Assembly (NCBI GenBank): GCA_005801395.1
Contig: SYDV01000399.1
Coordinates: forward strand, 1 to 13,836
Source: Planctomycetia bacterium
Lineage (GTDB): Bacteria; Planctomycetota; UBA11346
Reading direction: 5' to 3'
DNA: 13,836 nucleotides
The position numbers and the translations under genes are program-made. Numbering within the stretch: the first letter of the stretch is position 1; every line of letters begins with the position of its first letter. This document shows, one piece after another, positions 5,250-13,836 of the stretch. The notes below the pieces were generated by a model that was given only the letters and a program-made list of their open reading frames with translations, was not told the DNA's origin and ran no database searches.

Positions 5250-7343
5250 TCAGAAGAGGAATTCGAGTAACAAAAAGATAATTGCCACGGCGAGTGCGGC
5301 CAAACCGACCACCCACGCAATGGGTCCTGATAACAACAACAGCGCAACTAATCCAACGGCACCAGCAACGCTCAGTGTCAGTGAACTGCGCAGGCGAGGA
5401 CGTTGTACCGACGTATAGCCATCACCAAGAAAGCGTGAGACTTCAGCCGTCAGACCAACAATACCACCAATGATCGCATCAACGATCCAGGCCAAGATCC
5501 ATGCAGCCACTTTGGTCGGAATAATAACGGTGGCATGATAAACACGGTCGAAACCCCAGGTCCACCACGCGGCGAAACCAACCAAATCTTTTTCCGTGCT
5601 GTTGACGTGACCACGACTCCAAATGAAATGTGCGATTATCCAACCCAAGGCCGCTAATAAGGTACCTATTCCAGCAACGATCAACGGTAAATTGGAAGCA
5701 TGATGCGCAGCGGCATGTGGATGCATGAATTTTTGTGCCGACCCTACCACAGGACTGAGGTACGCTTCAAAAGCATTCGTACCAGAACCACCTAATACCG
5801 GCGACCACAACACACCAACCACCAAACTACCAAAACCCAATACTGAAATGGGAATAAGCATAGTCGCTGGTGATTCTTTCACATGGCCCTTTACCTCATC
5901 GCTATGACGGACTGGGCTCCAGAATGTCAAATACATCACGCGGGTCATATAAATCGCTGTCAGTAATGCCACAAACCCGGCAACTACGCCGACAATGGGC
6001 CCGAGAAAATGCGCCTCATATAAGCGTTCCAAAATAAGATCTTTCGAAAAGAAACCGGACCCCAGCGGTGCGCCAATAATTGCCCACCAACCACAGAACA
6101 TCCAAGTATAAGTAATTGGCATTAAGGTTTTCAAGCCACCCATACGACGCATATCTTGTTCGTGATGTAAGCCATGAATGACAGAACCAGCAGCTAAGAA
6201 CAACGTCGCTTTGAAGAAGGCGTGCGTAAAGACATGGAACAGTGCGACGTCAAAAGCACCAACGCCGCACGCCATAAACATGAAGCCCAATTGGCTAATA
6301 GTCGAATAAGCGAGAGCCTTTTTAATGTCGAGCTGAACCAAGCCAGCGACTGCACCCCAAGCCGCCGTAATACAGCCAACCACCAACACGATATCGAGCG
6401 CGGTCAGGCCGAAGCACACCGGAGCCGTCGCATGGACAAAAACATCAGATAAACGCGCCAGTAAATAAATACCCGACGTCACCATGGTCGCCGCGTGAAT
6501 TAATGCCGACACTGGCGTTGGACCCGCCATCGCATCTGGCAACCACGTAACCAAAGGAATCTGCGCACTCTTACCTGTGCAACCAACAAAGATCAAAATA
6601 CAGGCTGCACTGAGCAATCCCGCGCTACCCGCAATAATTCCGGCATTGGATGCGCTATTGAACCACGACGCGATTTCGCGGTAGTTGAAACTTCCTTGAC
6701 CATTTTGATTCATGACCATGAACAGGGCAAAGATACCTAATAAAAAGCCCAAATCACCAACACGATTAACGATAAAGGCTTTTCGTGCGGCATCGTTGTA
6801 ATCATTATTGTGGTGCCAGAAGCCAACTAACAGGTACGAACACATACCGACGCCTTCCCAACCCAGGAACGTCATTGGCAAACTGTCACCAATCACCAAC
6901 ACGATCATCGAAAACATAAACAAATTCATGTAGGTCATGAAGCGCGCAAAGCCGCGATCTTCCCACATGTAACCAACCGAATAAAGGTGAATCATGGTGC
7001 CGATACCGGTGACAAACAGCAACATCATGCTGGTCAGACGATCGAACATGAGGCCAACTTGTACATTCAGACTGAAACCGCCGACTTTGATCGACATCCA
7101 ATCCCACAAATTTTGCACTAAGGCGGGATTTGACTCTACATTCGCAATGCTGCCCAATTTAAAGGCCGCAATAACCGTCAGCACAAAGGCTAGGCCAGGC
7201 ATTAAAACAGCAATCAAGGATACGAACCCACGGTTCGGACCATACGCACTACGCGCACCACCTAAACTTAACGCACCATTTAATATGGCGCCTAAGAGCG
7301 GCAGAAACGGGATGAGCCACAATAACTCGAACGTGACTTTCAC
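5250..7343 (-). CDS. nuoL: NADH-quinone oxidoreductase subunit L
   Basis: 697 residues, against 613 in E. coli. Distal antiporter-like subunit of complex I with the long lateral helix. Key residues are visible: E163 in FLGWEGVGMCSYLLVGFW (TM5), K258 in CTGKSAQIPL (TM7), K378 in THAFFKATLF (TM10/11) and K434 in FFSKDLIL (TM12). A His-rich loop lies at about 541-548. The lateral helix region is about 595-645. After it the protein has two hydrophobic segments (about 653-672 and 675-697) where the family usually has one, so the C-terminus may end on the opposite side. The start is GTG, supported by a good AAGGAG site at 7351-7356. Confidence 0.97.
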   Translation of the reverse strand: MKVTFELLWLIPFLPLLGAILNGALSLGGARSAYGPNRGFVSLIAVLMPGLAFVLTVIAAFKLGSIANVESNPALVQNLWDWMSIKVGGFSLNVQVGLMFDRLTSMMLLFVTGIGTMIHLYSVGYMWEDRGFARFMTYMNLFMFSMIVLVIGDSLPMTFLGWEGVGMCSYLLVGFWHHNNDYNDAARKAFIVNRVGDLGFLLGIFALFMVMNQNGQGSFNYREIASWFNSASNAGIIAGSAGLLSAACILIFVGCTGKSAQIPLVTWLPDAMAGPTPVSALIHAATMVTSGIYLLARLSDVFVHATAPVCFGLTALDIVLVVGCITAAWGAVAGLVQLDIKKALAYSTISQLGFMFMACGVGAFDVALFHVFTHAFFKATLFLAAGSVIHGLHHEQDMRRMGGLKTLMPITYTWMFCGWWAIIGAPLGSGFFSKDLILERLYEAHFLGPIVGVVAGFVALLTAIYMTRVMYLTFWSPVRHSDEVKGHVKESPATMLIPISVLGFGSLVVGVLWSPVLGGSGTNAFEAYLSPVVGSAQKFMHPHAAAHHASNLPLIVAGIGTLLAALGWIIAHFIWSRGHVNSTEKDLVGFAAWWTWGFDRVYHATVIIPTKVAAWILAWIVDAIIGGIVGLTAEVSRFLGDGYTSVQRPRLRSSLTLSVAGAVGLVALLLLSGPIAWVVGLAALAVAIIFLLLEFLF

Positions 7344-7347
7344 TCGC

Positions 7348-7668
7348 CTACTCCTTCATATCCGCAAAGGCATCGCTATCGAGCGATTCACGCCCGCGCA
7401 CGATGCAGATCACCATTGCCAAACCGACACACGCCTCTGCTGCGGCAATGGCGATAATAAAAATAGGCGTCATTTGGCCAACCAACGATGCTTGCGCATC
7501 CAAGCCACGACTAAAACCAACAAAGCTTAAATTCACAGCATTGAGCATCAACTCGATACCCATCAGCAAGAGGAAGACATTACGACGTGTCAACGCGACG
7601 GCTAATCCTAAGCAGAACAAAATCGCCGCTATGATCTGCACATCACCAAGAGCAATATGATGGAACAT
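7348..7668 (-). CDS. nuoK: NADH-quinone oxidoreductase subunit K
   Basis: 106 residues with three membrane helices, close to the usual 100. It belongs to the MnhC/ND4L-like part of the complex I membrane arm that links the quinone site to the antiporter subunits. The two membrane glutamates needed for coupling are present: E39 in LLLMGIELMLNAVNL, and E78 in IAIAAAEACVGLA. They correspond to E36 and E72 of E. coli NuoK. The start ATG overlaps the nuoJ stop by one base (TAATG). A strong AGGAGG at 7679-7684 lies 10 bases upstream. Confidence 0.98.
   Translation of the reverse strand: MFHHIALGDVQIIAAILFCLGLAVALTRRNVFLLLMGIELMLNAVNLSFVGFSRGLDAQASLVGQMTPIFIIAIAAAEACVGLAMVICIVRGRESLDSDAFADMKE
7351..7356 (-). 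promoter_or_regulatory. Ribosome binding site AAGGAG for nuoL
   Basis: A perfect AAGGAG core overlaps the end of nuoK and lies 7 bases before the GTG at 7343. It fixes that GTG as the nuoL start. Confidence 0.8.
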
Positions 7669-8480
7669 TAGTGATGACCCTCCTCTTGAGAGACTTTGGG
7701 AGGCGGCGGACTGTCGAGATTGCGTTTCGCCAACACCACGGCACCAACCACAGCAGCCAATAACAACACGCCAATTAATTCGAACAGCAGATAATACCCT
7801 GGGCCATTACGATTACTGTTGAACATGGTTGCGGCCAAAATGGCGACTTCACCACGCGGCACACTGACCGATTGGAAAGTCACGCTGGCGGTGCCATTTT
7901 TATTGGCGCTATCGGCACTGGTGAGTTTCGCGGTATAGGTTCCAGCAGCGGCATACGTATGATCACTATGGCGACCACCGGCCGAAGTGCGGTCACCAAA
8001 TTCCCATTGATAGGTCGCCTTTTCGCCAGCATCAATTGCCGAAAATTGGACACGCAAAGCACTTTGATCCGCGAACGGAGTGACAATTAAACCGGCTGGA
8101 TCATTCAACGAAAAGGTCGGTTTAACCTGCAAGGCCGTCGTCACCAACGCCCCACCCAACACCACGGGTAACATTAAACCAGCTAAACTAAACCAATCGA
8201 ACAACGGAATAACATGCTCTTTAGCTTGATTCAGCACCATGATCACAAACACGACCAACATCATAATGGCACCTGCATAAACCAACACTTGCAGCACTGC
8301 CAAAAATGGACTGTGCAAGAGTGCGTAGATACCAGACAAACTTAGCATCACACCGATCAGGTATAATGCACCGTTAATGGGATGGCGGGAAAGTAATAAC
8401 CCTAGTCCGCACAACATCGAAATGCTGGCAAATAACCAGAAATAGGCGGGACCGAGAAGAGCATCAAGAACATGTAACAT
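7668..8480 (-). CDS. nuoJ: NADH-quinone oxidoreductase subunit J with inserted PKD domain
   Basis: 270 residues, against 184 in E. coli. Membrane-arm subunit (ND6 family) beside the quinone chamber. Helices are at about 11-31, 36-57, 60-84, 95-117 and 229-252. The TM3 signature FLAVLQVLVYAGAIMMLVVF (59-78), with the conserved Tyr at Y68, marks the family. YYLLFELIGVLLLAAVVGAV is the usual last helix. Between TM4 and TM5 lies an inserted soluble module with a PKD-type signature, YQWEFGDRTSAGG then HTYAAAGTYTAKLT. By the standard topology this loop faces the periplasm. The C-terminus is Pro-rich and ends in EEGHH. The reading frame is continuous through the insert. The ATG lies 2 bases after the nuoI stop. 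Confidence 0.95.
   Translation of the reverse strand: MLHVLDALLGPAYFWLFASISMLCGLGLLLSRHPINGALYLIGVMLSLSGIYALLHSPFLAVLQVLVYAGAIMMLVVFVIMVLNQAKEHVIPLFDWFSLAGLMLPVVLGGALVTTALQVKPTFSLNDPAGLIVTPFADQSALRVQFSAIDAGEKATYQWEFGDRTSAGGRHSDHTYAAAGTYTAKLTSADSANKNGTASVTFQSVSVPRGEVAILAATMFNSNRNGPGYYLLFELIGVLLLAAVVGAVVLAKRNLDSPPPPKVSQEEGHH
7679..7684 (-). promoter_or_regulatory. Ribosome binding site AGGAGG for nuoK
   Basis: A full AGGAGG within the last codons of nuoJ, 10 bases before the nuoK ATG. It is the strongest Shine-Dalgarno in the window, and its position confirms the one-base overlap of the two genes. Confidence 0.75.
7860..8087 (-). other. PKD (Ig-like) domain inserted in the NuoJ loop before the last helix
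   Basis: Residues about 132-207 of NuoJ. The order matches PKD domains: VQFSA strand (144-148), YQWEFGD (157-163, matching the family's WDFGD), HTYAAAGTYTAKLT (174-187, matching HTYxxxGTYTVTLT) and a closing ASVTFQSVSV strand. Such modules usually sit outside the cell and mediate contacts. The length fits one domain of about 75 residues. The domain call rests on motif recognition by eye. Confidence 0.85.
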
Positions 8481-8482
8481 AA

Positions 8483-9058
8483 TTAGTGGTACGTCCCCGA
8501 TTTAAATGCTTCGAGCGCCTCAGCATGGAGCAATCCACCTGGAGCTTTTTGGCTTTGAATATCCGCCACGGGATAATCCTTTGGCTTCCAATCCATCATC
8601 GTTTCTTTATTAATAATAAATTCAGCGCGATTATCGCCAGCCATGACACCTTCTCTGGTATCCATGCGAATCGCATCGCACGGACAAGCTTCAACACAGT
8701 AGCCGCAAAAGACACACAGGAGTAAATCAATTTCAAAGCGTACAGGACGCTTTTCGATGTGCTTATCCGGTGATTCTTCGGCAATGATATTAATGCAACG
8801 CGCTGGGCAGGCGGTTGAACACATGAAACAAGCAACGCACCGTGGCGTGCCATCTGGGCGCTTCATCAACCGATGACGTGCACGGTAATCACGCGGTAAA
8901 TTCGGCGCTTCTTCTGGGTAGTTCAGCGTCGGAAATTTTGTCGTTCCCGTTAAGTTGCGCACGGCATGAGCAATAGTGACCGTGAGACCTTTGAAGATCT
9001 CAACGAAATACACCTGCTCCCAGAAAGTCAGTTGCGGACGTGGTACGATTTTCGCCAT
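8483..9058 (-). CDS. nuoI: NADH-quinone oxidoreductase subunit I (two 4Fe-4S clusters)
   Basis: 191 residues. Peripheral subunit that carries clusters N6a and N6b and passes electrons from NuoG toward N2 and the quinone. Two ferredoxin motifs are complete. The first is CVACFMCSTACP (C74, C77, C80, C84) and the second is CVFCGYCVEACP (C115, C118, C121, C125). The N-terminus (about 15-38) is an amphipathic segment that would lie on the membrane. DAIRMDTREG after the second motif is also typical. The ATG at 9058 lies 6 bases after the nuoH stop with only a weak TAGG upstream, so coupling is likely. Confidence 0.98.
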   Translation of the reverse strand: MAKIVPRPQLTFWEQVYFVEIFKGLTVTIAHAVRNLTGTTKFPTLNYPEEAPNLPRDYRARHRLMKRPDGTPRCVACFMCSTACPARCINIIAEESPDKHIEKRPVRFEIDLLLCVFCGYCVEACPCDAIRMDTREGVMAGDNRAEFIINKETMMDWKPKDYPVADIQSQKAPGGLLHAEALEAFKSGTYH

Positions 9059-12174: not shown

Positions 12175-13521
12175 TTACCAGAACGCTCCTGACCGCTGCG
12201 TGACCAAATCACGAGGCTGGGTCTTTTGCGGGTTCTTGTCGATATAGGCCTGAAAATGTTCGCGATATTTTTTGGTGAAACTCAATACCGGCCATGCGGC
12301 ACCTGGGGCGAACGCACAAATGGTTGTCCATTCATAGCTTTCGGCCAAGTCGATAATGGTGTCGATGTCGCCATCGTGCCCTTGGCCATCGACCACATTA
12401 TCTAACATGCGGTCGACATAACCGGTGCCTTCACGACATGGGGTGCACTGACCACAGGATTCATGCGCATAGAAACGCGCGATTGATTGTAAGAATTTCG
12501 GGACATCCGTTTCAGTATTAAACGGCGTAATGGCCCCTGAACCGAGCATCGATTTAAACGCCGCAAGCGATTCATAATCAAGCGTCGCTTTTTTCGTTTC
12601 TTCAGCATTTAAGACCGGCGCTGACGAACCACCTGGGATACAACCCAGTAATTCACCTTTCAGGCCACCGCACAATTCAAAAAATTCCATGTAGCTCATG
12701 CCCAATGGTACTTCGTACACACCAGGCATTTTAATATCGCCGCTGATGGAAAATAATTTTGATCCAGGGCTCTTATCGGTGCCCCATTGGCGATAACCCT
12801 TAGCTCCATGTTTCAAGATATAGGGAACCGCCATAATGGTTTCTACATTATTAACCACGGTTGGCGCAGCGAACGCACCGCTGACAGCAGGGAACGGCGG
12901 TTTCAATCGTGGCTGACCTTTAAAGCCTTCGAGCGAGTTAATTAACGCGGTTTCTTCGCCACAAATATAAGCGCCAGCACCACGATGAACGTAAATATCG
13001 AGTGAATACTGCGAACCACCGATATTTTCACCCAATAATCCGGCCGCATATGCTTCTTTAATCGCGTCATTTAAATGACCAATTTGCGGCAACATTTCGC
13101 CACGAACATAAATATACGCAGTGCGTACGCCTAAGGCGTAACCGCTGATAATCATGCCTTCGATTAATAAATGTGGATCGCGGGTCATGCACAGGCGATC
13201 TTTGAAAGTGCCAGGTTCGCCTTCGTCGGCATTAATAACCAAATAGACTGGCTTACCGGTATTGCGCGGTACGAACGACCATTTCATGCCCGTAGGAAAT
13301 CCTGCACCGCCACGGCCACGCAAACCTGAATCTTTGACGATTTCAATTAATTCGAGTTGACTCTTATCGAATAACATTGGACCAATAGTTTCGTACGCAC
13401 CGTGTTTACGTGCGACGTCGAGTTTATTGCCGCCTTCGACTTGGAATAATCGACTCAAAATTCGTGGCAGGTCTTTACCCTTCCACTGTGCTGGCTGCGG
13501 AAATCCGTGGAGCATGGTCAT
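12175..13521 (-). CDS. nuoF: NADH-quinone oxidoreductase subunit F (NADH/FMN site)
   Basis: 448 residues, the normal length. NuoF binds NADH and FMN and carries cluster N3. The FMN/NADH loop GRGGAGFPTGMKW is at 69-81, followed by NADEGEPGTFKDR (97-109). The CGEETALINSLEG block is at 187-199. The N3 ligands are C356, C359 and C362 in ESCGQCTPCREGTG, plus C402 in TICAF. Segment 330-336 (AITPFNT) departs from the GGVIVMD-like sequence common here, though it is not at a cofactor ligand. The start ATG overlaps the preceding stop in ATGA, with GAAGG 7 bases upstream. A second ATG two codons later is possible. Confidence 0.98.
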   Translation of the reverse strand: MTMLHGFPQPAQWKGKDLPRILSRLFQVEGGNKLDVARKHGAYETIGPMLFDKSQLELIEIVKDSGLRGRGGAGFPTGMKWSFVPRNTGKPVYLVINADEGEPGTFKDRLCMTRDPHLLIEGMIISGYALGVRTAYIYVRGEMLPQIGHLNDAIKEAYAAGLLGENIGGSQYSLDIYVHRGAGAYICGEETALINSLEGFKGQPRLKPPFPAVSGAFAAPTVVNNVETIMAVPYILKHGAKGYRQWGTDKSPGSKLFSISGDIKMPGVYEVPLGMSYMEFFELCGGLKGELLGCIPGGSSAPVLNAEETKKATLDYESLAAFKSMLGSGAITPFNTETDVPKFLQSIARFYAHESCGQCTPCREGTGYVDRMLDNVVDGQGHDGDIDTIIDLAESYEWTTICAFAPGAAWPVLSFTKKYREHFQAYIDKNPQKTQPRDLVTQRSGAFW

Positions 13522-13836
13522 GGTGAAACCTTCGCCGCAGTTGGAGCAACAGGAGCAGGTGGCTGGCCAGTTGCCGATACCACCACACTTGGACGAGCGA
13601 TACGATCCTTTTCGTGGGCAATTACACGGTACTGCGCGCTGGCACCAACGGCTAACGTGTCGCCAGCTTTTTGATCTTTAGGTGTGGGTGTCGCTAATTC
13701 ACGCCACGTTGAACCATTATCATCCGATCGTTCTACGATGATTTTTGTGCTGCCCGAATCATTAATCCACGTCAGCGCTACGTTATCGCCCGCCACAGTG
13801 GCTGCTAATTTGAGTGCCTTGTGCTCCGTCCGGTCA
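13518..13836 (-). CDS. C-terminal part of a protein ending in a fibronectin-III-like domain (probably NuoE)
   Basis: The frame is open from the window edge to the TGA at 13518, giving 105 residues with no N-terminus. Residues about 8-90 have the fibronectin type III pattern: NVALTWINDSGSTKIIVERS, then NGSTWRELAT, then QYRVIAHEKD with the YRV strand, and a closing SVVVSAT. The last 15 residues are Pro/Ala-rich (GQPPAPVAPTAAKVSP). The stop overlaps the nuoF start (ATGA), so this is the gene directly before nuoF in the operon. That position normally belongs to nuoE, the thioredoxin-like 2Fe-2S subunit, but no NuoE motif is visible here. Identity as NuoE is inferred from position only. The GTG at 13796 inside the frame is not a likely true start because the domain extends upstream of it. 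Confidence 0.75.
   Translation of the reverse strand, partial: DRTEHKALKLAATVAGDNVALTWINDSGSTKIIVERSDDNGSTWRELATPTPKDQKAGDTLAVGASAQYRVIAHEKDRIARPSVVVSATGQPPAPVAPTAAKVSP
13566..13814 (-). other. Fibronectin type III-like domain at the C-terminus of the gene before nuoF
   Basis: About 83 residues. The B-strand Trp (ALTW), the VERSDDNGSTW stretch and the YRV of strand F are in the order and spacing expected of an FN3 module. Such domains are usually exported, yet the NADH module of complex I is cytoplasmic. The call is by eye and is sound for the fold, less so for its host protein. Confidence 0.75.

Follow-up and report, generated by a model that had tools for sequence, protein, structure and literature searches.

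The nuoJ gene on contig SYDV01000399.1 of the Planctomycetia bacterium assembly GCA_005801395.1 (analysed as a stretch of 13,836 nucleotides, hereafter the window) encodes an enlarged form of NuoJ, one of the core membrane subunits of respiratory complex I, in which an immunoglobulin-like PKD domain is predicted to be folded into the loop between the fourth and fifth transmembrane helices (TM4 and TM5). Judged from comparison of sequences, the domain is real, is common to relatives within one small group of uncultured planctomycetes, and is preserved by purifying selection.

Two Pfam models recognise the insert: PKD_4 (PF18911) at residues 141-201 (positions 7878-8060; 49.4 bits against a cut-off of 27) and PKD (PF00801) at residues 143-196 (45.5 bits against a cut-off of 23.5). 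The pattern W-[DE]-F-G-D followed by H-x-Y...G-x-Y is present at residues 159-163, as WEFGD, and at residues 174-182, within HTYAAAGTYT (174-183); W159 and D163 are invariant in 34 of 34 carrier rows. The reading frame is open through the insert, with no internal stops. Alignment with PKD-less relatives places the additional sequence at residues ~118-205 (about 80 residues, ~7866-8129 of the window), and in the predicted model its strands run from residue 123 to residue 204 and form a beta-sandwich resembling that of solved PKD domains. The linkers are short, TM4 ending at residue 117, six residues before the first strand, and the last strand ending at residue 204, just ahead of a conserved arginine at 209. 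A search of PDB sequences gave a matching division: the helical parts found NuoJ and ND6 chains, and the insert found collagenase, surface-layer and other PKD chains; across 28 sequences the best NuoJ/ND6 stretches stop at or before residue 136, and those of the PKD chains lie within residues 132-205.

The protein is otherwise a recognisable NuoJ. The family profile Oxidored_q3 (PF00499) matches residues 25-250 with 104.2 bits, well above the cut-off of 33.2; the predicted model has five helices of transmembrane length (residues 2-30, 34-55, 58-83, 96-117 and 229-255); and the gene lies between nuoI and nuoK. The RGE segment of the linker that precedes TM5 is present in eight of the 11 PKD-less rows of alignment A1. 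The equivalog cut-off of the NCBIfam NuoJ models was missed, the best model (NF005165) scoring 90.6 bits against 192 and the other NuoJ models listed also falling below their cut-offs; we take these to be lineage models, and on its remaining features the protein is best filed as NuoJ. An earlier note, made from the letters alone, had proposed a PKD domain between TM4 and TM5 with the flanking NuoJ helices intact, and both parts of that proposal are upheld by the Pfam matches, the motifs and the predicted helices: the profile search returned a strong match rather than none, and the region is predicted to be structured rather than disordered. The note located the insert correctly, but its interval of about 75 residues (132-207) omits the first strand.

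The side of the membrane can be argued by analogy. E. coli NuoJ has five transmembrane helices in an Out/In arrangement (PMC4604451, excerpt), and with five helices predicted here the TM4-TM5 loop would therefore be periplasmic, as the earlier note had also supposed, so that the PKD domain should protrude from the outer side of the membrane. The TM1-2 and TM3-4 loops hold one lysine or arginine apiece and the C-terminus three, together with three acidic residues; the N-terminus and the TM2-3 loop hold none. These counts agree weakly with this orientation.

Protein and profile searches returned 1274 and 2166 proteins respectively at E <= 0.001, of which the best 120 clusters were examined; a more distant NuoJ with some other insert may lie beyond them. 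PKD-labelled NuoJ accounts for 33 of the best 120 clusters in the protein search, three of them fragments (P0033, P0038 and P0039), and the profile-based search gave the identical 33 and no others among its 120. These clusters come from several sources, and the three genome loci that bear the insert (L001, L002 and L003) are all from metagenome-assembled genomes of Planctomycetota. The class to which genome G002 belongs is represented by 23 genomes, 22 of them with a NuoJ match, and in three (G001-G003) the match spans the insert. An even draw across the phylum, made at E <= 1e-45, a threshold at which divergent carriers could be missed, found the insert in 3 of 392 genomes. G004 is counted apart, its contig ending at about the end of TM4, so that it is not scorable for the insert; over the 118 residues read from G004 the nearest of six rows compared is the PKD-less P0034 (111/118). 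Counted from the column of residue 116 to that of residue 207, the loop has 92-95 residues in full-length carriers, or 160 in P0037, against 11-20 in 38 PKD-less rows. In a further comparison of 88 rows it has 91-94 residues in four (the window, L001, L002 and L003) and at most 18 in the other 84. P0037 is a NuoJ of 343 residues with a further charged stretch inside the PKD region. A protein search with the insert alone gave four matches, all known carriers, and was too insensitive to be useful. The range of the insert is narrow: one class of uncultured Planctomycetota.

Between the window and L001 the insert is 86.4% identical, with non-synonymous and synonymous divergences (dN and dS) of 0.078 and 0.42 and a dN/dS of 0.185, so the domain has been kept as protein, yet is changing fast. 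The corresponding figures are 98.3% identity, a dN of 0.011 and a dN/dS of 0.03 for TM1-4, and 98.1% identity and a dN/dS of 0.028 for the region after the insert. Mean column entropy over the 34 carriers is 1.50 bits for residues 118-205, 0.48 for residues 1-117 and 0.64 for residues 206-257. Outside the WxFGD core several positions are well kept: D150 in 32, G152 in all, G169 in 31, and R170 and H174 each in 33 of the 34.

For the history of the insert, a NuoJ tree was built without the insert columns (181 columns; 31 carriers and, out of 87 PKD-less clusters listed, 38, the three fragments being left out). The carriers form two groups separated by PKD-less rows, an arrangement that requires two state changes; a constraint placing all carriers in one clade was not rejected (p-AU 0.198). 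In a tree of the PKD domains themselves (89 columns; end branches > 1.5 for two of the comparison rows) a branch (83/79; 90% of 200 bootstrap trees) separates all 34 NuoJ domains from nine other PKD domains of G001-G003, these nine being the domains of loci L118-L133 that scored at least 10 bits with a NuoJ-PKD profile, lower-scoring domains having been dropped. Multiple independent insertions are disfavoured by the unrejected single clade and by this grouping, and the simplest account of the sequences is probably one gain of the domain in the TM4-TM5 loop followed by loss in some branches.

Other PKD domains were available in the same genomes, as parts of large multidomain proteins. Six open reading frames (ORFs) were scanned out of those behind 13 non-NuoJ PKD matches, some of these ORFs being cut by locus ends: four encode sugar-dehydrogenase (GSDH) proteins with CBM6, one a GH5 cellulase with PA14, and one has a peptidase M11 match. 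The four GSDH-PKD-CBM6 proteins and the GH5-PKD-PA14 protein are those of L118, L121, L122, L124 and L131; the L122 protein also matches a cytochrome c profile at 24.9 bits, above the cut-off of 21.3. The closest non-NuoJ domain, that of the L118 cellulase, scores 43 bits with the NuoJ-PKD profile against 110-130 for the NuoJ domains, and was judged too distant to be named as donor.

As to function, we lean tentatively, and at somewhat less than even confidence, towards the PKD domain being a built-in accessory module that braces the junction between the heel of NuoH, NuoA, NuoJ and NuoK and the NuoL side of the complex. The domain would probably have entered the TM4-TM5 loop a single time, in an ancestor belonging to one planctomycete class; it would fold on the periplasmic side, and with such short linkers it should sit near the membrane beside TM4, where it might cover the periplasmic ends of TM4 and its neighbours and so brace the heel to NuoL. 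The sequence, the fold prediction, the recurrence, the purifying selection and the pattern of presence and absence come from the present analysis, and the topology and surroundings of the loop are taken from published work; the bracing function and the single origin are what we infer. In bacterial complex I, NuoJ TM4 faces ND5-TMH16, and hairpins stabilise the periplasmic side at the places taken in mammals by NDUFA8 and NDUFS5 (PMC11522691, excerpt). ND6 is contacted by NDUFS5 and NDUFA13 in mammals, NDUFA13 lying on the side of the intermembrane space (PMC8762328, excerpt). These hairpins and contacts are the reason for reading the PKD domain as an accessory module there; the face proposed for it would be the one that carries NDUFS5, NDUFA8 and NDUFA13 in mitochondria and extended beta-hairpins in Paracoccus. 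In E. coli NuoG a 94-residue loop touches neighbouring subunits (PMC8357420, excerpt), and TssP, from a type VI membrane complex, is predicted to have PKD-like domains in its periplasmic part (PMC10781749).

Several observations weigh against this proposal. NuoJ was modelled as a single chain, so that contacts of the PKD domain with neighbouring subunits are conjectural, and the predicted template-modelling score (pTM) of that model is only 0.59. Near relatives do without the domain: the PKD-less clusters P0030-P0032 and P0034-P0036 share 72-78% identity with the NuoJ of the window. The NuoJ tree, with its two state changes, fits more than one order of gain and loss. The dN of the insert is some seven times that of TM1-4, and between the window and L003 the insert is only 35% identical, against 78% for TM1-4. 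Among the well-kept positions, DAG (150-152) is also found in the PKD domain of L126 and GRE (around 170) in that of L124; a NuoJ-specific PKD signature was accordingly dropped, and a contact surface particular to NuoJ is not supported.

Much of this would suit a tolerated passenger, an extracellular-type domain lodged in a permissive loop and kept folded only since misfolding would harm the subunit. The fast change and narrow range of the insert, the PKD-less near relatives, the conserved positions that are not exclusive to NuoJ and the long extra stretch in P0037 all fit such a domain; its retention in 31 full-length tree rows across much divergence, at the dN/dS given above, does not, and more frequent loss might be expected of a domain without use. 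We regard the passenger as only a little less likely than the brace. Slightly less likely again, in our estimate, is a docking module: by binding a partner in the periplasm, which might be alternative complex III, a cytochrome c or the cell-wall layer, the PKD domain would bring complex I into a supercomplex or hold it at one spot of the envelope. The earlier note had put forward partner docking, a supercomplex contact and a wall anchor as possible roles. PKD domains are generally regarded as binding modules, and the other PKD domains of these genomes do sit in large multidomain proteins (GSDH, GH5 cellulase, peptidase M11). Genes of the NrfD family, which presumably belong to alternative complex III, occur in 10 of 12 genomes, including all three carriers, and COX1 in 12 of 12; Cytochrom_B_N_2, the one cytochrome b family sought, was found in none of the 12. 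However, NrfD and COX1 also occur in PKD-less members of the class, so the presence of a partner is not tied to the PKD domain; co-occurrence singled out no partner and lends docking no support, though it does not refute it. Moreover, no exposed conserved patch was mapped, and among the operon genes none was recognisable as that of a partner. The more specific idea that the domain recruits complex I to a partner such as alternative complex III, giving a respirasome held together by an immunoglobulin-like domain taken from extracellular-type proteins, is improbable. A chimeric contig or annotation error, conceivable in that the insert-bearing loci are metagenome assemblies and raised as a caveat in the earlier note, can be set aside as having a negligible chance, the same architecture recurring in 33 clusters from several sources and in three assemblies, with an open frame under purifying selection.

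The setting of nuoJ in the operon is set out in Table 1. The minus strand of the window carries part of nuoE and then nuoF-G-H-I-J-K-L-M-N, as established from ORFs, Pfam matches and comparison with L002. The nuoK ORF overlaps the stop codon of nuoJ by one base, and its product is 88% identical to that of the ORF at the equivalent place in L002.

Table 1. Features of the window that bear on NuoJ and its neighbours
Feature	Positions	Strand	Basis
nuoJ, 270 aa, with PKD insert	7668..8480	-	PF00499 104.2 bits, PF18911 49.4 bits; place in operon
NuoJ N-terminal part, residues 1-117, TM1-TM4	8130..8480	-	Model helices; NuoJ/ND6 matches
PKD domain of NuoJ, residues 121-206	7863..8120	-	Pfam, predicted model, fold match
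Linker with conserved RGE segment, residues 208-228	7797..7859	-	Alignment A1, conservation table
NuoJ TM5, residues 229-255	7716..7796	-	Model helix, alignment
nuoI, upstream neighbour of nuoJ	8483..9058	-	4Fe-4S Pfam matches and place
nuoK, downstream neighbour of nuoJ	7348..7668	-	ORF; named by place and size, without Pfam scan
nuoL	5250..7343	-	PF00361 and PF00662
nuoH, 471 aa	9065..10480	-	PF00146
nuoE 3' part, coding for C-terminal FN3-like domain	13518..13835	-	Aligned to L002 NuoE

NuoH is also long, at 471 residues; its E. coli counterpart has 325 (PMC8357420, excerpt). Fifteen other closed NuoH ORFs have 432-484 residues; those of L003 and L004 come out longer, which may reflect an early start. 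The added length looks partly hydrophobic and perhaps provides added helices. The putative FN3-like domain of NuoE was assigned from AlphaFold and VIA on the L002 protein. Downstream of nuoN, at 408-2195 on the minus strand, lie a short ORF, which we take to be thioesterase-like, and a PF01553 acyltransferase; similar-looking ORFs also follow nuoN in L002 and L003.

No description of a PKD domain with complex I or NuoJ was found in the open-licence literature, where NuoJ and PKD as words occurred together in a single paper, a membrane proteomics study of E. coli (PMC6788730), and wider searches likewise brought up nothing comparable among the titles and abstract openings listed; this and the PDB sequence search agree with the earlier note, whose author knew of no complex I with such a module. 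An insertion beside TM4 that is present or absent among close relatives offers a ready-made test of whether the periplasmic face of NuoJ plays a part in stability, coupling or supercomplex formation. It also points to a way in which bacteria may gain accessory modules, by incorporating a complete domain in a core subunit, in addition to the loops, hairpins and tails known to date.

Compared with NuoJ/Nqo10/ND6 proteins of family PF00499, the protein shares the five helices of transmembrane length, the position between nuoI and nuoK and a profile score above cut-off, and its predicted fold matches cyanobacterial, Paracoccus, E. coli and mitochondrial NuoJ/ND6 chains; it differs in the PKD domain of about 80 additional residues between TM4 and TM5. 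With other PKD domains (PF00801 and PF18911; for example those of collagenases ColG and ColH, PrtV and Epp) it shares the profile, the WEFGD and HTY..GTY motifs and the predicted fold, but they belong to secreted enzymes, whereas this one lies within a membrane subunit of five helices, in one of its loops; the loop ahead of Y157 is also shorter than in the L118 cellulase domain. Like the G-loop of E. coli NuoG or, in Paracoccus, the periplasmic beta-hairpins and the C-terminal extension of ND6, it enlarges a core subunit in one lineage; unlike those loops, hairpins and tails, it is a whole, recognisable domain of a known extracellular family.
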